Notes under the pieces: model-generated
The model's database searches: none
Told to the model about the DNA's origin: nothing
The model's input: the letters and a program-made list of their open reading frames with translations, nothing else
Program-made: the position numbers and the translations under genes
Shown here: positions 50,956 through 63,908 of the stretch, in pieces
Numbering within the stretch: position 1 is the first letter of the stretch
Layout: every line of letters begins with the position of its first letter
Origin: Akkermansiaceae bacterium
GTDB lineage: Bacteria; Verrucomicrobiota; Verrucomicrobiia; Verrucomicrobiales; Akkermansiaceae
Direction: 5' to 3'
Length of the DNA stretch: 64,000 bases
Assembly (NCBI GenBank): GCA_905181965.1
Contig: CAJIZY010000004.1
Coordinates: forward strand, 89,512-153,511

Positions 50956-51768
50956 CTAATTTTGTGCAAGCCCCGCCTTGTCAGCTTCGAGAGCCTCCTG
51001 GGACTTCTCGAGAGATGCCTTGCTTTGTTCAGCAGCCCAACTTGAGTAGGATTTTTGGCTTACAACCTCCATAACCCCGCGCATATTCGCGTGGTTCTCA
51101 CCGCAGAGCTGACCGCACACTACATAGGTTTCAAGCTCCTTAGTTGGCATGAACCACATTGGAATGTCACGTCCCGGAATTGCATCCTGTTGGATCCTCA
51201 TCGGCACGATTGAGTAGTTGTGAATCACATCTGTTGAAGTGACTTGGAGGATGGCATTGCGCTTAACCGGTAATTTCAAAATGCCTGAAACGAAATCGTC
51301 GTAGCCATTTGGATCATCTGGGTCGATACAGGGATCTCCCGGCCGGCTCACAAGGGTCCGGTCAATGCGGCCGAACTTTCCATCCTCACCGGGATAGTGG
51401 TAACCAAATCCAAACTGGTATGCCACGACACGAACCCGAGCGGGATCGGTCTGCGTGACCTCCTCAAAATTATCGGTCCTCTCCCACCAGAGAGGGAAAG
51501 CAAATCCGAGCAGAAGAACAGCTTCGATAATCACTACCCCAATCTCCAGATGACTAGAGACGTGATTTGTGACACCGTGGTAGCTAGCCTTAGCATTCTT
51601 CGAGGCCCTAAACTTCCAAAGGCAGAATAGGAAGAAAAGAGTCCACCCAATAAAGAGCGCGAACATAAACCAGTGAACAATATCGATGAGGTGGTCGACA
51701 TTGCCGCCGTGATCGGAGTAATTCTCGGGAATCCCGAGCCATTTTGACCAATTGAGTAAGGTAAACAT
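50956..51768 (-). CDS. ctaC: Cytochrome c oxidase subunit II (CuA subunit)
   Basis: 270 residues. Two membrane helices (about 28-50 and 73-94) anchor a periplasmic cupredoxin. The CuA site reads CGQLCGENHANM with both Cys, His and Met, and the first His ligand is in TSTDVIHNYSI. The electron-entry Trp region, normally QW, is here VVAYQFGFGYHYPG. It accepts electrons from cytochrome c and passes them to subunit I. No heme c is fused at the C-terminus, which instead has a helical Ala/Glu/Lys tail. It is the last gene of the respiratory cluster, an unusual place, since subunit II usually comes first. A weak AGCCGG/CCGGCT hairpin follows at about 50910-50951. Confidence 0.93.
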   Translation of the reverse strand: MFTLLNWSKWLGIPENYSDHGGNVDHLIDIVHWFMFALFIGWTLFFLFCLWKFRASKNAKASYHGVTNHVSSHLEIGVVIIEAVLLLGFAFPLWWERTDNFEEVTQTDPARVRVVAYQFGFGYHYPGEDGKFGRIDRTLVSRPGDPCIDPDDPNGYDDFVSGILKLPVKRNAILQVTSTDVIHNYSIVPMRIQQDAIPGRDIPMWFMPTKELETYVVCGQLCGENHANMRGVMEVVSQKSYSSWAAEQSKASLEKSQEALEADKAGLAQN

Positions 51769-52242: not shown

Positions 52243-52629
52243 TCATCGACCATGAACGTCCGTCGCCGGTTTAGATGGATCGTAGAAGCCATCGCTGTAG
52301 GACTCATTCCCAAATTCGATAGGATCGCTTATCGACCAACCAATCAACCACATACAGAAAAATGCCATCACTAATCCGAGAGTATAGAAAAAATAAACCA
52401 TCGGACGCTCGTGGTTAAGGTGCATGAATATCAGCATCACAAGCGTCGCTTTAAATGCAGCGATACAAAGGCCGATTGTTGCGTCCATTGCATCAAATCC
52501 ATGGCCACCAAAGTCTAGCCATTCAACCGACGCTACCATCACCGTAACAACAGTGAAGACAAACAACAGAGTACCGATAAATAGATAGAGCTTCTTCGCC
52601 TTTTTTACTTCTTCGATGGAATCAGCCAT
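52243..52629 (-). CDS. ctaF: Cytochrome c oxidase subunit IV (caa3-type)
   Basis: 128 residues, three hydrophobic segments (about 13-35, 50-72 and 80-103). The middle helix with DATIGLCIAAFKATLVMLIF and the following MHLNHERPMVYFFY are the marks of the prokaryotic subunit IV (COX4_pro) family; the F-M-H-L pattern after the second helix is typical. It is a small structural subunit of aa3/caa3 oxidases. It lies 35 bp after subunit III. Confidence 0.88.
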   Translation of the reverse strand: MADSIEEVKKAKKLYLFIGTLLFVFTVVTVMVASVEWLDFGGHGFDAMDATIGLCIAAFKATLVMLIFMHLNHERPMVYFFYTLGLVMAFFCMWLIGWSISDPIEFGNESYSDGFYDPSKPATDVHGR

Positions 52630-52663: not shown

Positions 52664-54488
52664 TTACATTAGATAGAGAATCGGGAAGAGAAAGATCCAA
52701 ACAAGATCAACAAAGTGCCAAAAAAGCCCGCCCACTTCGACCCGATTTGCTAACCATTCCGGGTTAGAGTCATACATCTTACGCCCAAAGAACAAATAGT
52801 AGCCAAGAACAAGAGCACCGCCTATCACGTGAAGACCATGCAAACCGGTGATTGTAAAGTAGATCGCATAGTAAGTATTCCACTTAGGGGTAAAGGTGGA
52901 CTCAAACCCAACATTAGCGCGCGGAATCTCAAGATGGGGAAACTTCTTCCCATGGATTTTGTGATTAGCGCCTGCAAACCCGTCAAGATCGAAAAGACCA
53001 CTCCGCTTAAGCGTCCGGGCCTTGCTTTCCTCGTAAACCTTTTCGCTATCATACCCCAATCCCTCGTAGGCAAGAATCTGATCCCAATTCACGCGATACT
53101 TATCATTAAGAGTCGGAACACGGTCCTTCTTTTCGAGCCGCTCTGTCTCAGCCTTTAGCCACGCCATGTGGCAGTCCCAAATCTTCTTGAACTCGTTTCG
53201 GTGGTCAGTATCTCCACCTTCACTGTGTCCGTCATGGCTCCCATGATCAACCTCGTGAGTCAGGAGCCAAGTGCCCTCGATAACAGGAAGCGGGTCAAGC
53301 CCTTCAACCTCAGCACGCTGTGCCGTCGTCCGAAAATCCAGAGCATCAACCCCCATAATCACGGGACTAGCAAGAACCTCGTCCATCACGTTGAGCAATA
53401 GCGTGGAGATAACCTTCGTCATCACCAACATTAACTTTCTTAATTTCTAAATCCTCCTCCATCTCGACTGGCTCGACTGGCTCGACTGGCTCGACTGGCT
53501 CGACTGGCTCGACTGGCTCGACTGGCTCGACTTTAAAAGTGACCTCAGAAGGTGCCCGAAGACTCAAAATCTTAATCTTTTCGGCATCCTCAGCACGACG
53601 ATCTTTCCAAATCTCTTTTTCGATGACATAGGTGGAAGCTTCTTCCACACCTTTTTCATTACGAATCCAATCCCAAGAGGCCGCGAGAAACTGGGTCCGG
53701 ATCTTCCGATCGTGTGAGCGAGCTTCAAGATAGGCATCTTCGAGTTTGTCTAGTAAGTCGATGCTAAGCTCTTCTCCCTTCTCTGCAATCTCCGCCTTTT
53801 CGGTATTCGAAAGCTGATCACGATTCATTTTACCAGCATTGAGCTCATCCTTGTCGATTACTCGGTAAGACTCAGCTAGAGTGATTTTATGATTGCTGCC
53901 AGCTTGCCTGAGAATCTCCTTCACGTAAGCCTCGTGAGTCGGACGTGTCAGGACGAAAGTCAATTCCGACGCTTTCACCAACACGCGGTTTGCCTTGAAG
54001 ACTCCCTCCTCCTTTTTTCGGTCTTCACCAACCTCGACCATGAACCCATCGTCATTCAACTCAGCATAGTGCAAGTGCCCCTCTACGATAGCGTTATCTT
54101 GGACTGGCCCACCTCCTTGAAGACGAACCGCCTGGTGACCGAACTTGGCGTTGTATTCAATCCCCTTGAGCACCATAAAAAGGCCGGCACACACAAGTGT
54201 GATTGCCATGTAGATCTGAAACTTCCGCCATTCCCGCATCTTCAATGCAGCCCATGCAAATACAACAGTAACCGAGGACCCAATCAGCACGAAAGTGTTG
54301 ATTAAACCGGGGAGAACAGGAAGCGCTCGCTCCGGCCATGGATAGTCGGCATAGAGCCGTAAGAACAAATAACCCGAAAACAGGCCACCGAACAAAGTGA
54401 CTTCAGAAGCTAAAAATAGCCAGATACCTACCTTCGAGTTGAAGAGACCGGTGTCCTTACGGGCGTTGACAATAAATGGAATTTCCAT
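52664..54488 (-). CDS. ctaE: Cytochrome c oxidase subunit III with ~415-residue hydrophilic insertion; one frameshift
   Basis: The N-terminal part has three helices of a five-helix subunit III: LASEVTLFGGLFSGYLFLRL with the conserved Glu, LINTFVLIGSSVTVVFAWA, and QIYMAITLVCAGLFMVLKGIEY. The last two helices are at the far end (NTYYAIYFTITGLHGLHV and WHFVDLVWIFLFPILYL). Between about 54140 and 52890 lies a charged, mostly helical insert of about 415 residues that ordinary subunits III (about 200 residues) lack. It includes a (Val-Glu-Pro)n tract. A frameshift falls near 53400 inside the insert. From the family's topology the insert should face the periplasm. Start ATG at 54488, about 40 bp after subunit I. 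Confidence 0.85.
53463..53532 (-). repeat. 9-bp tandem repeat coding for (Val-Glu-Pro)n in subunit III
   Basis: Seven perfect copies of CTCGACTGG (plus-strand reading) from 53463 to 53525, then a partial copy to 53532. Read on the minus strand in frame it gives repeated Val-Glu-Pro. Perfect identity of the copies points to recent slippage. Confidence 0.95.
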
Positions 54489-54527: not shown

Positions 54528-56418
54528 CTAGACCCCGGTCGTCTCCTTTTCAGGTTTCGCCTCGGCCTCCTCAGCTGGCGCATCGCGCTTTGGCTCTTCC
54601 CACTGCGGGAAGAAGTCAGCATCGTGATCCGGACGGCTATATTCGTAGGGTCCGCGATAGATCGAAGGTTCGAAGGTGAAATTTCCGTGTCCCGGAGGCG
54701 TTGGAGTAGCCCACTCAAGAGTCGTTGCATCCCAAGGGTTGTCGCTCTTGATTTTCTTACCCCAGAAGTAGCTGATGACCATATTGACAGAGGAATGGTA
54801 GCTGAAAAACAGCGAGAGCAATTGCAGAACCAGTCATAATTTCGTTAAGCGAAATTTTCTCAGCAACAGTGAGGCCAAAGACGTTGACCCCCTCGGCACC
54901 TTTTTCAATATACCCTTCTCCTCCGTTATACCAACGACGGTGAAACCCGGCCATTCCTTGGGTCAGCATCGGGAAAAAGAGGAGATTCATGCAGACTAAT
55001 GAAGGCCAGAAGTGGAGGTGTCCGAGGAAATTATCCAAGAAGCGACCCGTCATCTTAGGATACCAGTGATAGATACCCGCAAACAGACCGAAGAGGATTC
55101 CAGGAGCCACCACGTAATGAAAGTGGCCAATCACATAATACGTATCGTGCAGATGGAGGTCAGCGAGATTAAAGGCTAATGGAAGGCCAGTAAGCCCACC
55201 AATACCAAACATCGGGAGAAATGCCGCAGCCCAAATCATGGGCATCGTAAAGCGAATTGAACCACCCCAGAGCGAAATTATCATTGAAGTGAGCAAGATA
55301 ACCGAAGGCACCGAAATCAAAAATGTCGTAGTTTGGAAGAAAGTTGAAATCACAGGACCCATTCCACTAACATACATGTGGTGAGCCCAAACGATAAAGG
55401 AAAGGAAACCAAGGACAATGAGCGCCCACACCATTGGCTTGTATCCCCAAAGCGGCTTCCGCGTGTTGCACGGAATGATTTCGGCTACGCAAGCAATCGC
55501 AGGGAGTAGGAGGACGTAAACCTCGGGATGCCCCAGGAACCAGAAGAGGTGTTGGAAAAGAAGGGGGCTGCCCGATCCCGAGAGATCCATGGCTGCTCCA
55601 CTCGAAGCAGAATAAAGACCCGAAGGCATAAAGAAGCTTGAACCGACAACACGATCCATCAGCTGCATAATACCAGCGGCCTCAAGTGGCGGGAAGGCAA
55701 GCAAGAGAAGAAAACCAGTCACAAGCATAGCCCAGACAAAAAATGGGAGCCGCATCCAAGTTAGGCCCTTTGCCCTTAATTGAATGATCGTTGTGACGAA
55801 GTTCACCGAGCCTAGGAGCGATGATGTGATCAGTAAAACCAGACCGATGAGCCATTGCGTTTGACCTGCTAGGAACTGGTTAACGATCTGTTTGTCGGCA
55901 TAACCAGCGAGAGGTGAGTAGTTTGTCCAACCAGACTTAGCAGCACCAGATTCCATAAAGAAACTCATGCACATTACGAGTCCACCAGCAAGATACGCCC
56001 AAAAACTAGCCATGTTAAGCTTTGGAAACGCCATATCTGGAGCACCGATTTGTAGAGGTGTAACGTAATTTCCAAAGGCCGCGAATCCCAGAGGCACCAC
56101 CCCAAGGAACACCATAATTGTCCCGTGCATGGCGCCGAACATATTATAAGTCTCGCCGGTAACTTTTCCGTCGTCCAACCAGCGAGCTTTCCATCCATCG
56201 GTAAACATCCAACTCAGGTAACCGGGAAGAGGCTCATGAGGATAAGCAATGCTCCACCGCATCACAATCATCAGGAAAAAACCAAAGAGCAAAAAGGCTC
56301 CAGCCGATAGGCCATACTGAATCCCAATTGTCTTGTGGTCTGTTGAAAAGAAATACTTCTTCCACCAGGGAAGAACATGATGGTGATCGTCGTGATGTTC
56401 GTGGGCGTCCGCACTCAT
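54528..56418 (-). CDS. ctaD: Cytochrome c oxidase subunit I (aa3-type), one frameshift near the C-terminus
   Basis: Starts at the ATG at 56418 (MSADAHEHHDDHHH); an upstream TTG overlaps the cytochrome gene. All heme-copper ligands are present: AMHGTIMVF (heme a), GHPEVYVLLLP (CuB His and cross-linked Tyr), WAHHMYVSGM (two CuB His) and DTYYVIGHFHYVV (heme a and a3). The D-channel entrance resembles FGNYVTPLQIGAPDMAFP. The frame changes near 54800, within the last membrane helix; the second piece continues SYHSSVNMVISYFWG, TTLEWATPTPPGHGNF and a Pro/Glu/Lys-rich tail to the stop at 54528. It reduces O2 to water while pumping protons. Confidence 0.94.
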
Positions 56419-56444
56419 AGTGATTTCGATGGTCGGTGTTAAGA

Positions 56445-57215
56445 TTATTTCTCGGTTAAAATTGGTTCCCAAGTTTCGGGGTCCAACATGGTGTCTGGTG
56501 ACAAGATGTCACCGGGAAGCATCTTGTCATGTGATTTTTTAAGGAGCTCAGCACTTGTTTGACCGCCGCCACGCTCTTTCGAAATTTCTAAAGCATTAGC
56601 GGCCATAGATGGAGAAACAAGACTCGCATCGTTACCCCAAGAAGTACGGATATAAGTCATTAAAGCAGCGAGCTCCTTGGCGTTCAGATTCGCACCGAAG
56701 GCACTCATATTCCCGTTATACTGAGTTCCTGCAACCTCGATCTTACCGGCAACCCCATTATGAATAATCATGGAAAGGGCCTGAGTGCTTCCCAGAACCC
56801 ACTCGGAGCCGGCGAGGGGCGGGAACTGGCCGGTCTGGCCAAGCCCGCTATCTTGGTGACAAGCCACACAGGTACCATAAACCTTCTTGCCTTCCTTCTG
56901 AAACAAGGCCAAAGCTGCAATTGGCACCTTAGGCGCGTCCTGCGGAACCGGAGATGGCGTCCTCATATAACCTTCCTTAACCAACTCGCTATATCCAAAA
57001 AACGAACCACCCTGGCCCATCACTGCTCCAGCAGCTAAAACCACAATTGCAGAGATTAAGACAAGCCAAAGAGAAACAGCCTCCATGCCATTCTCACGTA
57101 CCGCCTTTTCCCGGCCGGCAGCCGGATCGCCCTTGAGAGCGCTGTGAGCATCCTGAACGTTGATCGATTCGTCCAAATCTGGACGGAGGTCACTTGATGA
57201 TGATGAATCAGACAT
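56445..57215 (-). CDS. Membrane-anchored monoheme cytochrome c
   Basis: 256 residues. A cytoplasmic N-terminus, one membrane helix (about 47-67), then a periplasmic class I cytochrome c domain: heme motif CVACH (about 116-120), PLAGSEWVLG, and the axial Met in NGNMSAFG. It resembles the single-heme forms of CcoP-type cytochromes. It lies between the CcoO-like gene (2 bp away) and subunit I of the aa3 oxidase, so it is well placed to carry electrons from the Act complex to CuA. The C-terminus after the heme domain is a helical extension of about 55 residues. Confidence 0.88.
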   Translation of the reverse strand: MSDSSSSSDLRPDLDESINVQDAHSALKGDPAAGREKAVRENGMEAVSLWLVLISAIVVLAAGAVMGQGGSFFGYSELVKEGYMRTPSPVPQDAPKVPIAALALFQKEGKKVYGTCVACHQDSGLGQTGQFPPLAGSEWVLGSTQALSMIIHNGVAGKIEVAGTQYNGNMSAFGANLNAKELAALMTYIRTSWGNDASLVSPSMAANALEISKERGGGQTSAELLKKSHDKMLPGDILSPDTMLDPETWEPILTEK

Positions 57216-57217
57216 GA

Positions 57218-57976
57218 CTATTCTTCGGATTTAGGGGCCTTTGGATTAAAATTAAGAGCATCAGGAAGCGGGTTCCCAAGAGTGTCCTTTTTGAGAGAAA
57301 GCAAATAACTGACAAGAGCCCGGGCACGATCGGAGGGCTTGATGCCCATCCCCGCCTCGATATCGACTGGCAAGGTACCATATCCTGCACCATTTACTTG
57401 GACCTTATCAAACAAACCCGACTTTGGTGGGCAGGCTGATTTCCAAGCGGTGATGATCTGCGCCCCAGTCTCGGGAACCTCGTAGCGAGGGACCGCTTTC
57501 GGATTGTAGAGGTGCATCAAGGACCATTGTTCCGGAGTCCGACTACTCTTGTTAAGCTTGAGGTAGTGTTCAAGACGACGTCCAAAGTTAGAAAGATCGG
57601 GCCCAACTCTTGTTTGACCGATGTGAGCAACATCCTCCTGCTGGAAATCTTGAGCGATGGTCTCGCGGCGAGTGTCCTCGTCTACACTACTGCTCTTCCG
57701 AAGCCCGGCCCACTCACCTCGGTGGACATCATTCCCAGCGTAGGTTGGGCGGATGACTTGAGTGTGACAGAGAGCGCAACCCTCCTGACCAAAAATTCGA
57801 GAACCCTCTTTAATACGCCCATCGCGCTTAGGCACGAAAGCCCCCGTAAACTCAGAATCCTTACCATATTCGACAGGGTCAAGACTTCGCATCGTTGAAT
57901 ATGGAACGACCACCAAGAGCAGCCAAGGAATCCCAAAGGTTGCTAAGAGACCTATAATGAATGCTTTAAAAGTCAT
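57218..57976 (-). CDS. CcoO/FixO-like membrane-anchored cytochrome c
   Basis: 252 residues. An N-terminal membrane anchor (FIIGLLATFGIPWLLLVVVPY) and a FixO-type monoheme domain: GSRIFGQEGCALCHTQVIRP (heme motif at 67-71), TRVGPDLSNFGRR and HLYNPKAVPRYEVP. In ordinary CcoO the last block continues with the axial Met of MPxY; here the matching positions read PRYEVPETG, so the sixth heme ligand is unclear. It pairs with the CcoN-like protein 21 bp upstream, which has lost its active-site ligands. Probably an electron-transfer subunit rather than part of a working cbb3 oxidase. Confidence 0.85.
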   Translation of the reverse strand: MTFKAFIIGLLATFGIPWLLLVVVPYSTMRSLDPVEYGKDSEFTGAFVPKRDGRIKEGSRIFGQEGCALCHTQVIRPTYAGNDVHRGEWAGLRKSSSVDEDTRRETIAQDFQQEDVAHIGQTRVGPDLSNFGRRLEHYLKLNKSSRTPEQWSLMHLYNPKAVPRYEVPETGAQIITAWKSACPPKSGLFDKVQVNGAGYGTLPVDIEAGMGIKPSDRARALVSYLLSLKKDTLGNPLPDALNFNPKAPKSEE

Positions 57977-57997: not shown

Positions 57998-59485
57998 TTA
58001 GGCAGAAGCGGAACTATAATTATCAACCTCACCCTCTGGTCCATGCGGACTCGTCGGATGATGCGCATCAAGGAGCGTTGGATGTGACGATCGACGACCA
58101 AGGCGGGCCCACATCAGGAACAAGTGCAGGCAGAAGAATAAATTGGCAAAAAGGATAAAAGCCCAAGCAAGCGTGACTCCCCAACTGAACTGAGTCGCAC
58201 GTTCTGCCATTGTTCCAAAGGGTTGGCTAAGATCCTCGATCCCTTGTCCCTGAGACAGACCCCCAGCAATCGCACAAATAACAACAGAAGAGATACCGTA
58301 AATAGAACAGAAGAAGTGCCATTTAATGAAACGGCGGGAAAGCCATTCACGACGGGTAATTCGAGGAACAATGAAATAAATCGCTCCAAAAGCGCAAAGT
58401 GAGAATACCCCGTAAAGTCCCAAAACATCGAATCCGTAACCTGTGTAGGTGAACTGGGTCAACTTCAAGGCTGGAACGGTGTGGAGAAGGACCGAAAGGC
58501 CGCCAAAAACAACGAAAAGAACAATGCCAGCTGCCGTAAACCGAAGGGACGGACTTTCCGCAATAACTTCGCTATTACCGATTACAGTTTTGATTATATT
58601 GTAACCAACCGCGATAGCGGGAATCAGAATCAAGATCATCGAGGCCGCCCCTGCGTATGGAAGAAATTGGGGAACCGGAGCGCCAAAGAGCTTCTCCATC
58701 CCTGCCCATGGCCCGAATACTGCGAGGGACCAGAAGCCAAAGAGAGCGATATTGTAACTGTAGACTGGACGACCCGTTACCTTCGGAGCCAGATAGTAAG
58801 CGCTGCCGAGAGCAACCGGCAGGAAGAAGAGGGAGAAAAGGGTTCCCTTAAACCACCCCGCTACCCCTGCAACCATTAGGGGATGGCCATCCATGAGAAA
58901 AACAAAAACCCAAGCGGTCACCGCAATCCAGGGAAACCAAAGTAGGCCCGCGAGGAGATACCACTGACTCACGTAGACATGACCGGCATCGCGAACCTGA
59001 AACTGAACCAAGGACCAAATTGTAATGGTGGTGTAACAAACTAACAGCAGAGGCCAAACTTCACTTGGAAATTCCATGTAAGTGACACCCGAACCTTCAC
59101 CCATCATAATCCGAATAATTCCATATGAGACTACGGCATTCCAGACATGAGCTGCCCAGAGAATAATCCCTGAAGCAGTGCACTCTTTACGGGATAGCCG
59201 AGCCATGAGCCAGATGATGATTCCAAAAGCAGCCTGCAAGCCCCATCCATAAATCATTGCGCTCATATGAGCCGCGTCCACCTTTCCTGCGTCCAACCAT
59301 GAAAAGCAGGTTAGGAACTCGGGGTTGTGCTTCTTGGCGGAAGCCACCAGCCCAAGAACGATGGAGAGCACAAGCCAAAGAGCGCCACTCGCGAATAAAA
59401 ACATCACGGGATGACGAAGAGAGCGATCAATCGACGAGCGTAAAACGACGTCCTTGGAATCTGCGGTAGAATTGTTCTCAGCCAT
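57998..59485 (-). CDS. CcoN-like (cbb3 subunit I) protein lacking the CuB and heme b3 ligands
   Basis: 495 residues with about twelve membrane helices. CcoN homology is clear from GHVYVSQWYLLAG, YYLAPKVTGRPVYSYNIALF and AIYFIVPRITRREW. The catalytic histidines are gone: the CcoN block WYGHN reads WFKGT (211-215), GPHHLHY reads GMEKLFG (262-268), and the heme b/b3 pair in TIGHVH reads YTGYGF (347-352). Only His73 (AAHMSAMIYGWG), the first low-spin heme ligand, remains. It therefore should not bind CuB or heme b3 and cannot reduce O2. The frame is intact and the membrane core conserved, so it looks like a maintained, repurposed subunit. It lies in the middle of the ACIII-aa3 cluster. Confidence 0.85.
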   Translation of the reverse strand: MAENNSTADSKDVVLRSSIDRSLRHPVMFLFASGALWLVLSIVLGLVASAKKHNPEFLTCFSWLDAGKVDAAHMSAMIYGWGLQAAFGIIIWLMARLSRKECTASGIILWAAHVWNAVVSYGIIRIMMGEGSGVTYMEFPSEVWPLLLVCYTTITIWSLVQFQVRDAGHVYVSQWYLLAGLLWFPWIAVTAWVFVFLMDGHPLMVAGVAGWFKGTLFSLFFLPVALGSAYYLAPKVTGRPVYSYNIALFGFWSLAVFGPWAGMEKLFGAPVPQFLPYAGAASMILILIPAIAVGYNIIKTVIGNSEVIAESPSLRFTAAGIVLFVVFGGLSVLLHTVPALKLTQFTYTGYGFDVLGLYGVFSLCAFGAIYFIVPRITRREWLSRRFIKWHFFCSIYGISSVVICAIAGGLSQGQGIEDLSQPFGTMAERATQFSWGVTLAWAFILFANLFFCLHLFLMWARLGRRSSHPTLLDAHHPTSPHGPEGEVDNYSSASA

Positions 59486-59848: not shown

Positions 59849-61169
59849 TTAGTTGTGAAGATTTGCGGACTCGAGAATACGAGGGTCGCGATGAGGGTAG
59901 AGAGCTGCAGACGTAAGATTCCGAAGGTAAATAAACAGAAAAGCACTAACGACGAAAACCAAAGCAAGTATGTCGCCCAACCATGAACCAGAAATCCAGA
60001 GATGAGGATGATGATCGATCACAAGACCTACGGAAGGACCACGCTCAGGAATGACCATGTGATAAACATCCAAGACATGCATAAAAAGGATGTAGAAACA
60101 GAAAATCGTCATGAACTTCGAGCTCTTTTTTACGTCTGAACGTAGAAGCGCCAAGAAAGGAAGTCCGAAGTGCATGAACACAAGAGCCAAACTCAGCAGG
60201 TTCCAATTTTCAGTATTTCGCAGAAGGAAGTAGCGGGTCTCCTCTGTGATATTGGCATACCAAATCAAGAAAAATTGAGAGAAGGAGACATAAGCCCAGA
60301 AAACGGTAAAGGCGAAGCAGAGCTTGCCCATGATGTGGTAGTGCTCCTGCGTAACTACGTTCTTGAGGTAGCCCATTTTCTGTAGAAAAATTCCCGTAAG
60401 GATCAGGACGGCCATCGAGTTTAGGGCTGATCCCGCAAAGACATAGACCCCAAACATTGTCGAGAACCATGAGTAATCTAGAGCCATCACAAAATCGAGT
60501 GCTAGAAAAGTTAAGGTCACCCCGAAGATGATCATACTCCAAGAAGAATGCTTTCGGGCTGCGAAGAGATTTTTAGTCCCGGGGTTATCATCAGTGTCCT
60601 GTGCTATGGAAAACTTCCGAACAAGAAAGATGAAGAAGCCAAGACCAATAAAGTAGAAAGCGACCCGTGCATAAAAGAAACCTGGATTTAGGTAGAAGGT
60701 CTTGGCGGCAAGCAGATGATTGTGAGGGTCGGAATCGTGGAGGAGTTTCTCCTTGGCGTTCGCACTGTCCCCAACAACCTCGCGATAAGCTGTCATCCAT
60801 TCGTAGAGATACTGCTGAACATTGGGGAAAAGAAATGGAATGAAAAAGACCGCCATAAACGGAAAAACAAACCCCAGATTCTCCATCAATCGACGGACAG
60901 ATGTCCCCCACCCCGAATTCGAGAGGTTATGAAGGAAAGTCCAAAAACAACCACCTAGAACGATTGTCGTGACGAAGAAAACTGCGAAAAGCCAGGAGAA
61001 TGCATAGCTCCCGTGGATCTCACCACTTCCGCTGACCAAATAAATGATACTTGCGAGCAGACCCAATTCCACCGATGCCGCCGCAAATCATCTGAAGGGT
61101 CGCAATTTTTCCCTTCTCTAGGTGCTCCCCGTTGATCGGAATGTCTTTTGATGTCACTTGATGTGCCAT
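59849..61169 (-). CDS. actF: Alternative complex III subunit ActF, one frameshift near the N-terminus
   Basis: The ATG at 61169 begins MAHQVTSKDIPINGEHLEKG; the frame changes at about 61075, and the main part then runs through about ten membrane helices to 59849. Typical ActF features include WLFAVFFVTTIVLGGCFWTFL, VRRLMENLGFVFPFMAV, DYSWFSTMFGVYVFAGS and LDVYHMVIPERGP. ActF is one of the two large membrane subunits of the quinol:cytochrome c/HiPIP oxidoreductase that replaces the bc1 complex in many Bacteroidota and Verrucomicrobiota. It lies 25 bp after actE. Confidence 0.9.
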
Positions 61170-61193: not shown

Positions 61194-61816
61194 TTATTTT
61201 GCAGAAGCCTGAAGTGCGCGGAGATAGGAAACGATTGCCCATCGGTCGCGAACGGGTAGGTTGTGTTTGTAGCCTCCCATAAGGCCCTTGCCATTTGAGA
61301 TGACCTCGTAAATATAGCCGTCAGGTGAGGTTTCCTGAGGATAGTTATGGAGACTAGGAACTCCGACACCAACCTTTCCTAGGTGGTGGGAGACAACGCC
61401 CCTTCCCGTTACCCCGACTTACCGTGACAGATGGCGCAGTGGACATTAAACATATCCTCTCCCGTCCCAAGAGACCCTACCATATCGGCCTCACTTTCGA
61501 TGCCAAGATCATCAGGCAGACCATTACCGAAGGTAGCCTCTTTCTTTCCATCGAAATAGTATCCAGCACGTCCGGCCCCGAACTCAACGGGCATCACTCC
61601 TACTTCAGCATTGCGAGGAATGGTTCCAGTAACCGGTTTCCGTGACCCCATGCCATCGGCAAAAAAGGAATCAGCGGTCTGAGCCTTGACCTTATCCTGA
61701 TCATCCATGTCAGGAAAAACCTGAATAGGTGCTTGTGAGAATTTGTCGCCACGGAATCCAAACACCCCGACCACAAGGATCGACAGGGCGATGAGAGAGA
61801 GAAAAAAGTATTTCAT
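61194..61816 (-). CDS. actE: Alternative complex III monoheme cytochrome ActE, one frameshift
   Basis: A signal or anchor helix (FFLSLIALSILVVGVFGF) precedes ActE-type blocks: PIQVFPDMDDQDKVKAQ, GTIPRNAEV, and heme motif CAICHGKSG (127-135). The direct frame stops right after the heme motif at about 61409. In another frame the expected remainder follows: GVVSHHLGKVGVGVPSL, PDGYIYEVISNGKGLMGGY with the axial Met, and VRDRWAIVSYLRALQ to a TAA at 61194. ActE passes electrons from the complex to the oxidase. It is 3 bp after actD. Confidence 0.9.
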
Positions 61817-61819
61817 GGT

Positions 61820-62377
61820 TTACTCGGAATCGTCTTCCACGAGCTCGATGTTATCCCCGCCAATTTCCGTGAGAAGAGATTTGGTGCTCTCGGCGGAGAA
61901 CTTTGCGTCACGGGCTTCGATCGCGATAAAGAACTTATCATCGGTCACACGTTTAAATTGCTTGCTTGCAAAGATCGGGTGGTTCCAACGTGGCAGCCCG
62001 ATCAAAGCGAGCAGCCCAAAGAGAACCGTAAAACCCGAGAAAAGAATAGTGAGCTCAAACATCACGGGAAAGAAGGCCGCTGTAGTGAAGATGTTGGCTG
62101 GCTTACCCTGGACTACTGTTGGGTAAAGACCAACTTGAGTCGTGTAAGCCAAAGCGATCGCGGTGAGGAAACCGGTCAAACCTCCAAAGAATACGAAGTA
62201 AGGAAGAACAGAGCGCTTCACGCCCATTGCGTCATCCAATCCATGAACCGGATACGGCGTGTAACAATCCCACTTTTTGAAGCCGGCATCCCGAACCTTT
62301 TCGGCAGCTTTGTAAAGCTGCGAAGCATTTTTGAACTCGGCGAGGTAGCCGTAAACTCTGCGGACTTTCGTGCTCAT
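61820..62377 (-). CDS. actD: Alternative complex III subunit ActD (DUF3341)
   Basis: 185 residues. DUF3341 signature: VYGYLAEFKNASQLYKAAEK, KKWDCYTPYPVHGLDDAMG and PYFVFFGGLTGFLTA, with two membrane helices (about 58-80 and 103-130), then PRWNHPIFASKQFKRVTDDKF. A small structural subunit on the cytoplasmic/membrane side of the complex. It lies 14 bp after actC and 3 bp before actE. Intact. Confidence 0.93.
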   Translation of the reverse strand: MSTKVRRVYGYLAEFKNASQLYKAAEKVRDAGFKKWDCYTPYPVHGLDDAMGVKRSVLPYFVFFGGLTGFLTAIALAYTTQVGLYPTVVQGKPANIFTTAAFFPVMFELTILFSGFTVLFGLLALIGLPRWNHPIFASKQFKRVTDDKFFIAIEARDAKFSAESTKSLLTEIGGDNIELVEDDSE

Positions 62378-62391
62378 TTAGCTTTCGGCAG

Positions 62392-63908
62392 TTAAGGTTT
62401 CAGATTCAATCCCGGCTCCTTAGCGGCTCCTTCGGGATTCTCGTGTAATTCGTATTGGTAGGCTTCGATTACTTTGATGCCATCATCAGGATGAGCTTTC
62501 TTATCCTCATCGTGAACATCACTCTCTTTGAGAGTCCATTTGACCTCAGCGATATTGATACAAGGAAGAAAACGGAGGAAGAGAAGAAAGAGAGCAAGGA
62601 ACATCCCGATGGTGCCCACGAAAAGCATCTGGTCTTGGCCGGACGGGGAAAAGGTTTTCCATGATGATGGAAGGTAATCTCTGTGTAATGAGGTCACAAT
62701 AATAACAAACCGCTCAAACCACATTCCAATGTTAATAGCAATAGAAATGAATAAACGTAATTATGAAACTTCTTCTAAATTTTTTAATCCAAAGTAATTG
62801 TGGAATCACAATGTTGAAGGTAATCAATGACCAAAATGCCCACCAATAAGGTCCGGAAAGACGGTAGAGGAAGGCAGCGCTCTCGTATTTCGCACCCGAG
62901 TAGAAGGCGATAAAGAGTTCCATTAAATAGGCATAACCCACAATCGTTCCTGTCAACAAGATGATCTTGGCCATGTTATCGATGTGCTTCATCGTGATCA
63001 TGTCTTGCAAGCCGTAGATAAAACGAGCAGGGAATCATGATAGTGAGCACCATCGCAAATCCACCGAAGATCGCACCTGCCACAAAGTAAGGGGGGAAGA
63101 TCGTGGTGTGCCATCCAGGAACAACCGAAGTCGCAAAATCGAACGAAACAACCGAGTGCACCGAGAGAACAAGTGGAGTTGAAAGCGCCGCTAAAAGTAA
63201 GTAGGCCATCTCATAGTGGCTCCATTGGCGGTTACCGCCACGCCATCCTAATGAGAAGATCCCATACATAAACTTTCGGATGCCTGGCTTGCACCGATCA
63301 CGAATCGTCGCAAGGTCTGGAACCATACCGAGAAACCAAAAAATCAAGGAAACCGTGAAGTAGGTAGAGACCGCGAAAACGTCCCACAGGAGCGGCGACT
63401 TGAAGTTTTGCCAAATCGCGTTCGAGTTAGGGATTGGCGCAAGAAACCACGCCATCCAAACACGCCCAACGTGAAAGGCTGGGAAAATACCCGCGCACAT
63501 CACTGCAAAAATAGTCATGGCCTCGGCGGCCCGGTTGATCGAGGTCCGCCAATTTTGACGAGTCAGGAAAAGAATTGCAGAAATCAAAGTTCCCGCGTGC
63601 CCGATGCCGATCCAGAAAACAAAATTCACAATAGGCCATCCCCACATGACGCGGTTCGTGTTCCCCCAAACTCCAACTCCTGTCGAAACCAAATAAGTGA
63701 GACCGCCCACAACCCCTACCAGGGCAATCATGGCCGATGGAATAAAAAGAATCCACCAGAGAAACGGCTGCCGATTTTCGACAACACCGCAAATCCGCTC
63801 GGTAATCCAATTGTAGGAACGTTTTTTAAGAATCAACTCCTCACGCTCGAGGACGGGAATTTTTATCCCGTTCGTGTTGTTCTCAGACTGTGTGGTCGCT
63901 TCGGACAT
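62392..63908 (-). CDS. actC: Alternative complex III quinol-binding subunit ActC (NrfD-like), two frameshifts
   Basis: Start ATG at 63908. Piece 1 (to about 63030) has helices with [37 protein letters not shown] and [20 protein letters not shown]. Piece 2 (about 63030-62745) has [20 protein letters not shown] and [20 protein letters not shown]. Piece 3 (62745-62392) has [20 protein letters not shown] and a soluble C-terminus. ActC is the NrfD/PsrC-type subunit that oxidises quinol. The region around the second break (62670-62830) is AT-rich and Bacteroidota-like. Lies just after actB. Confidence 0.92.
62670..62830. other. AT-rich island inside actC
   Basis: The rows 62701-62760 and 62761-62820 have by hand count about 30% and 27% G+C, well below the neighbouring rows. 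The segment encodes the highly conserved end of the NrfD-like core and contains a frameshift at about 62745. It looks like the thrS island: A/T-ending codons in a block that is very conserved across phyla. Confidence 0.55.

Follow-up and report, generated by a model that had tools for sequence, protein, structure and literature searches.

Heme-copper oxidase subunit I is the textbook case of residues that cannot change. In Flavobacterium johnsoniae (ACIII-aa3) and Rhodothermus marinus (ACIII-caa3), the genes for ACIII are followed by those for an A-type oxidase and a c-heme bridges the two; in the accessible parts of the reports, the step to the oxidase is thought to use the sixth ActA heme in F. 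johnsoniae and the heme c of subunit II in R. marinus (PMC8552683, PMC5928083). C-type oxidase genes are described beside ACIII in Opitutaceae and verrucomicrobial methanotrophs in the accessible text of PMC8498564 (citing Refojo et al. 2010). Additionally, ACIII itself offers a case of a catalytic-type subunit reused without its cofactor, in that the B1 domain of ActB resembles molybdoenzymes and, according to the available sections of that report, holds no prosthetic group (PMC5928083). The locus described here differs from those of F. johnsoniae and R. marinus in carrying the genes of a CcoN/O/P-like trio between those of ACIII and the oxidase. We found no report of missing ligands in ACIII-linked CcoN-like proteins in the open-licence literature, as far as its accessible text goes.

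The CcoN-like protein (P0001) is encoded at 57998..59485 on the minus strand of the window, which is the whole 64,000-nucleotide stretch of Akkermansiaceae DNA that was analysed, in a frame of 495 aa running from ATG to stop. It matches the COX1/CcoN family of Pfam (PF00115, 4.8e-37) and the NCBIfam ccoN model (TIGR00780, 1.1e-26) at 93.8 bits, below a curated cut-off of 583.15 that two ligand-complete relatives also miss (249 and 225 bits). The solved chains that it matches best are CcoN (9g6b_A at 1e-22 and 3mk7_A at 2.4e-19), and its AlphaFold2 model (pLDDT 86.4, pTM 0.88; 12 long helices counted) finds CcoN in all of its top seven PDB chains (TM 0.82-0.85). Identity as a nitric oxide reductase was rejected, as NorB ranks behind those seven chains (TM 0.77) and the metal-site His are lost. 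Compared with six relatives (L004-L009), the gene gives dN/dS of 0.034-0.043 (Nei-Gojobori; dS is high for L007 and L008), within the range of 0.000-0.075 given by the five neighbour genes tested; the nearest relative, L009, has dN 0.017, dS 0.415 and a ratio of 0.041. P0001 is an intact homologue of CcoN (cbb3 subunit I) under purifying selection. The window's genome, 61.6% complete, holds two COX1 proteins, namely P0001 and the adjoining aa3 subunit I, and no CcoN match above the curated cut-off.

P0001 resembles CcoN of the C-family in being homologous over nearly its whole length and in having as neighbours a cytochrome c and a mono-heme protein that is CcoO-like by sub-cut-off matches and position. 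It is unlike CcoN in standing within an ACIII cluster, in its score (94 versus 583 bits) and in the absence of six of the seven residues of the site. We located the seven site columns through fused CcoNO proteins of related genomes (L091, L092), and took the roles (CuB, b3, b, Tyr) and the P. stutzeri numbers H60, H207, Y251, H257, H258, H347 and H349 to be those of the cbb3 literature. The seven positions read HHYHHHH in the fused proteins and HGGEKFV in P0001, which keeps one of six site His and has lost the other five along with the Tyr. All on the minus strand and placed by alignment, Gly214 (58844..58846) stands in place of the first CuB His, Gly258 (58712..58714) in place of the active-site Tyr, Glu264-Lys265 (58691..58696) in place of the CuB His pair, and Phe352 and Val354 (58424..58432) in place of the heme b3 His and the second heme b His. 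The sole site residue kept, His73 (59267..59269, minus strand), is the equivalent of the first heme b His.

Near relatives share these replacements. Among 119 sequences longer than 450 aa (of 121; query included; identity 56% and up), His73 is present in all 119; Gln or Glu stands at position 264 in 117 of them and Lys or Arg at position 265 in 118, with Ile or Val at the second heme b position (354) in 108; further conserved His lie at 25, 113, 390, 454, 468 and 481. Across lineages the replacements differ, and no new common set of metal ligands was seen at the replaced positions. A preliminary description of this DNA had reported the CuB, b3 and b His as replaced with only His73 left, and had pointed to close relatives that keep their His as the sign of a sequence artefact. 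The replacements are as it described, the active-site Tyr is lost as well, and the close relatives examined share the loss. Relatives elsewhere in the class keep all seven residues, so the loss in P0001 is an evolved one.

The gene sits within an ACIII-oxidase cluster, entirely on the minus strand, with ACIII genes upstream and aa3 genes downstream. Upstream lie what we take to be ActF (59849..61072; no Pfam match, recognized by position and homology across loci), the ACIII cytochrome c ActE (61409..61816; broken, with two ORFs here versus one of 207 aa in L004-L009), ActD (61820..62377) and the NrfD-like ActC (62392..63908; PF03916 at 1.1e-18, broken into three ORFs). The contig stops at the window end, inside the ACIII genes, and further ACIII genes lie outside view. 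Starting 21 bases past the CcoN-like stop is the gene for the CcoO-like protein (57218..57976; 252 aa, one CxxCH), which scores 26.1 bits with FixO (Pfam cut-off 29.6) and 25.9 bits with ccoO (cut-off 200.65) and owes its label also to its position. Beginning 2 bases beyond that gene, a mono-heme, CcoP-like cytochrome c of 256 aa (56445..57215; PF00034 at 4.7e-12) has one CxxCH. The aa3-type oxidase follows, with subunit I (CtaD, 54757..56472; PF00115 at 3.6e-129, its frame broken near the 3' end relative to relatives), subunit III (CtaE, PF00510) in a first piece (53367..54488) and a second (52664..53431), a small subunit IV-like protein named here from position and conservation (52243..52629), and subunit II (CtaC, 50956..51768; PF00116), which has a CuA-type motif and no CxxCH.

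ActC, ActE, CtaD and CtaE are broken in the window yet whole in relatives, CtaE being a single ORF of 592-602 aa in L004, L005, L007 and L009, and the CcoN-like gene between them is intact. The breaks are perhaps assembly errors; three of the five stretches inspected for a homopolymer cause held no run of at least five. The CtaE frames carry a long charged insertion between transmembrane parts (592-602 aa versus 273 in the Kam1 locus), and in the window (52664-54488, minus strand) this insertion has a VEP repeat and the gene is broken in two. An Rfam scan of the window gave nothing at gathering score. The preliminary description had taken P0001 for a homologue of cbb3 subunit I, whole in frame amid broken genes and with its CcoO-like and cytochrome c partners retained; the Pfam, NCBIfam, chain and model matches bear out the first point, and both partners are present in the window, with c-heme motifs kept across loci that have lost the site.

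The gene order ActC-ActD-ActE-ActF-CcoN-like-CcoO-like-cytochrome c recurs in many Verrucomicrobiae, in stretches of up to 21 kb. We compared 112 loci (window included), hand-picked for many families of the class rather than sampled at random; L090 (a fragment) and L102 and L104 (no such gene) are absent from all tabulations. All seven site residues are kept in 33 loci and six in one, at most three remain in 78, and no locus keeps four or five. Among the 78 loss loci, three residues are kept in 2, two in 8, one in 50 and none in 18; 75 lack the b3 His and 58 lack all three CuB His, and the equivalent of His73 is kept in 32 and gone in 46. Four loci of one family (f6; L161, L164, L166, L169) keep both heme b His and have lost the b3 and CuB His, which looks like a halfway state. 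Of the 78 loss loci, 77 have ActF upstream, as do 30 of the 34 complete loci. Conservation of the loss and of the gene order, which the preliminary description proposed to examine, is found in the replacements shared by the near family and in the ACIII-trio order of the class.

Genome searches for the family covered the window's phylum. Within the window's family, matches to P0001 at E <= 0.001 come from 85 of 97 genomes, some few of them being fragments, and in the class 259 of 385 match the ligand-complete L103 at E <= 1e-60. The fused ordinary CcoN listed for class genomes fall short of that level with this query (1.2e-56 at best), but the weakest of the 259 may still be ordinary CcoN. Source databases label such proteins cbb3 oxidase subunits. 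Ordinary CcoN above the cut-off occurs in 150 of 385 class genomes, for example alongside the ligandless L099 (genome G258); thus, loss of the site does not equal absence of any cbb3 oxidase. Completeness is most likely the ancestral state, because two loci outside the class (L267 and L268, family f24) keep all seven residues, as do fused CcoN.

Several loci depart from the common arrangement. L268 (3434-7258) and L267 (3271-5295) each hold a ligand-complete CcoN-like and CcoO-like pair, to which L268 adds a seven-CxxCH protein, and ActC, ActD and ActF gave no match near the pair within the stretch read. In the window's family, genome G090 has a second, ligand-complete trio (L088) besides the ligandless L093; no ACIII gene was found beside L088, and this trio was perhaps transferred. 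An extra cytochrome c gene lies between ActF and the CcoN-like gene in L093, L094, L208, L209, L214 and L215, from several genera of the same family. In another of its genera (g3), the 20 genomes listed show no COX1 match.

The trees of the CcoN-like protein itself need 2-4 losses of the site, versus 9-15 changes of state on the trees of its neighbours. States change at least 15 times on the ActB+ActC tree (94 rows), 11 of them forced by well supported branches; the corresponding figures are 15 and 11 for ActF (100 rows), 9 and 5 for the CcoO-like protein (91 rows) and 11 and 5 for the cytochrome c (102 rows), with near-copies and rows without the gene left out of all four trees. Three groups in which complete and loss loci are intermixed on the ActB+ActC tree were each constrained to stay together in the CcoN-like data: group A (L139, L149, L152, L184, L101, L197, L186, L189), group B (L158, L162, L190, L193, L182, L192, L203, L201, L191) and group C (L153, L159, L181, L106, L154, L195, L180, L196, L097, L157). 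Quick trees of the CcoN-like protein give 2-3 losses, and a longer search gives 3. Constraining groups A and C to stay together raises the number to 4, at a non-significant cost of 10 likelihood units (AU p 0.40); these trees omit 17 rows (quick tree) or 19 (longer search and AU/SH tests), including L087, L089 and all of the Methylacidiphilum family.

In the AU and SH tests (LG+F+G4, site columns removed), a single loss, with all 60 loss rows in one clade, was rejected (AU p 0.005, CcoN-like data). One clade of all loss rows but L099 was rejected by AU (p 0.041) and not by SH (p 0.195). The site would thus have been lost at least twice, three times by the AU test, and perhaps ten times or more if the neighbours' trees are right. 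Groups A and C are not rejected by the CcoN-like data (p 0.937 and 0.972, versus the quick tree), and we dismissed the idea that transfer of the trio between lineages explains the scattered pattern on its own. Group B is rejected (p 0.0007), and the longer free search brought group A nearly together and did not recover group C; transfer or a long-branch effect is therefore possible, above all in group B. Within one genus (g41), the complete L149 and the ligandless L101 agree at 94% in ActC, 90% in ActF, 70% in the CcoO-like protein and 47% in the CcoN-like protein, versus 89%, 78%, 68% and 75% for the complete pair L149 and L152. From this comparison, the CcoN-like protein seems to have sped up after the site was lost, and its CcoO-like partner not.

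The reading that we favour, at a probability of roughly 0.6, is that the gutted CcoN serves as a membrane scaffold that docks the CcoO-like and CcoP-like c-heme proteins and so bridges ACIII to a separate oxidase, here probably the aa3 type. The ancestor would probably have been an ACIII-linked C-type oxidase with its site complete; other oxidases would then have assumed its catalytic work, leaving the CcoN-like subunit with the docking job. The trio would be part of the ACIII assembly, with the two c-heme proteins docked onto ACIII by a CcoN-like protein that presumably holds no heme, and electrons would run from ActE through the CcoO-like protein or the cytochrome c to CuA. The CcoN fold, purifying selection, the recurrent gene order, the kept CxxCH motifs and the lack of another bridging heme support this scaffold reading; gene order alone is no proof of a new job, because complete members have the same neighbours. 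The proposed reuse would parallel the B1 domain of ActB, which is unrelated in fold and whose loss, in the accessible description, is general to ACIII (PMC5928083), whereas the CcoN-like loss is repeated within part of one family.

The c-hemes of the cluster carry the argument for a bridge. Wherever the gene was found, the CcoO-like protein has its CxxCH (68 of 68 loss loci and 31 of 31 complete loci, from totals of 78 and 34), as does the cytochrome c in 77 of 77 loss loci and 32 of 33 complete loci. The cytochrome c of the 77 loss loci has one CxxCH in 69 and two in 8; that of the window has one and is hence not a di-heme CcoP, which sets the third partner of P0001 apart from its counterpart in cbb3. 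An ActA-type ORF, sought upstream as an ORF with at least four CxxCH, has five in all 94 cases found (27 complete and 67 loss, of 112 loci), and the sixth ActA heme motif is absent from all 94. Similarly, none of the 61 CtaC found has the CxxCH of a subunit II heme c. Since the search turned up neither of the known bridging hemes, the c-hemes that the cluster has left for the step to the oxidase are those of the cytochrome c and the CcoO-like protein, and we infer, with the absence of the known bridging hemes as the main argument, that these two proteins form the bridge.

A link to a neighbouring aa3 oxidase is where the most serious alternative enters, namely that the subunit has a structural role alone within ACIII, serving stability or assembly, with the c-heme proteins as ordinary carriers to any oxidase and no bridge to aa3. 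Among loci with more than 7.5 kb of downstream room, 48 of 69 that have lost the site carry CtaD no more than 9 kb downstream, versus 5 of 31 complete loci; in raw counts this is a striking difference, and it speaks for the bridge. The other 21 roomy loss loci have no CtaD within that distance and still keep the trio beside ACIII, which favours a structural part, as does the outcome after correction for relatedness, in which the link between loss and aa3 did not reach significance (sign test over 9 independent pairs, with a median p of 0.5; on starred branches, an average of 2.4 independent pairs pointed the same way and 0.1 the opposite way). Nor is the trio universal, because one Verrucomicrobiota isolate, in the accessible account, has a caa3 oxidase directly after ActABCDEF, no trio between them and CcoN elsewhere (PMC13274419). 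Against this alternative, aa3 genes follow directly in the window and its near relatives, and the cluster yielded no other bridging heme; we consider it rather unlikely.

Less probable still is that His73 holds a single five-coordinate heme b and that the subunit is a gas-binding or sensing heme protein. His73 in 119 of 119 close sequences leaves room for such a heme and counts against a cofactor-free scaffold, its equivalent persists in 32 of 78 loss loci, and the four f6 loci with both heme b His but neither b3 nor CuB fit the idea, but this His is missing from 46 of 78 loss loci, and 108 of the 119 close sequences have Ile or Val at the second heme b position. The helical bundle kept in the predicted model could suit a quinone or ion channel left over from the oxidase, which would be a long shot, as the site positions vary between lineages. 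Of the two readings offered in the preliminary description, the better supported is thus the first, a scaffold or electron-transfer module linking ACIII with aa3, and the channel gained no support. That the subunit might still reduce O2 or NO with other residues as ligands is more improbable again: the near family has its other conserved His (25, 113, 390, 454, 468, 481), which lend the idea no positive support, and the replaced positions vary between lineages with no common new ligand set. A decaying pseudogene or assembly artefact, suggested by the broken neighbouring genes of this assembly, is refuted by the same replacements in more than 100 sequences and by dN/dS of 0.034-0.043.

The scaffold reading would extend to Methylacidiphilum. 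In eleven genomes of this family (f4) the CcoN-like protein shares 26-29% of its residues with L103 (31% in the case of one fragment). Four of these genomes were tested for pmoA/amoA-family genes and all four gave a match, and none of the 11 has a CcoN above the curated cut-off, the best scoring 44.6 bits compared with 225 and 249 for ligand-complete relatives. Each of the 10 f4 loci read retains a single site residue out of seven; in each, ActE and ActF precede the CcoN-like gene, and the genes for the CcoO-like protein, cytochrome c and aa3 CtaD come after it. The protein of one of them (L232; G237, contig of 2,202,032 bases) matches the entry 'cytochrome oxidase [Methylacidiphilum kamchatkense Kam1]' with 100% identity and an M. 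infernorum entry with 72%, and the model of the Kam1 protein (pLDDT 86.6) best matches CcoN (TM 0.81-0.84).

PMC6688271, in its accessible text, places the Kam1 genes for ACIII together with those of a cbb3 oxidase and links this arrangement with high oxygen affinity, and a cbb3-type oxidase is listed for such methanotrophs in the parts available of PMC8498564, PMC10205796, PMC8170126 and PMC11102522. By strain name and place beside ACIII, the gutted Kam1 protein is likely the published Kam1 'cbb3 oxidase', and we assume identity of the genes with the 'cbb3' of the methanotrophs in the other four reports. The ACIII-linked C-type oxidase genes of PMC8498564, as far as its text is accessible, have the same arrangement as the P0001 trio, and very likely belong to the same family; that report describes an oxidase, whereas the site is missing in Methylacidiphilum and in 78 of the 112 loci here. 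The Kam1 cbb3 oxidase linked in print with high oxygen affinity appears doubtful, because its ACIII-linked protein, like all 10 f4 loci read, is gutted.

On balance, it seems that Verrucomicrobiae several times made an oxygen reductase's catalytic subunit into a scaffold free of cofactors, with the gutted oxidase half of ACIII bridging to a second oxidase, and hence that Methylacidiphilum may have no high-affinity 'cbb3 oxidase' of this kind. Annotation is affected, both in the cbb3 subunit labels of source databases and in the ACIII-linked Kam1 genes tied to high oxygen affinity in the accessible text of PMC6688271. Electron hand-over from ACIII to the oxidase is an open question, testable in a group in which neither known bridging heme was found. 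With the site nearly wholly gone, more than once, and the gene under strong selection in the P0001 lineage, the oxidase part seems to have a job separable from catalysis.
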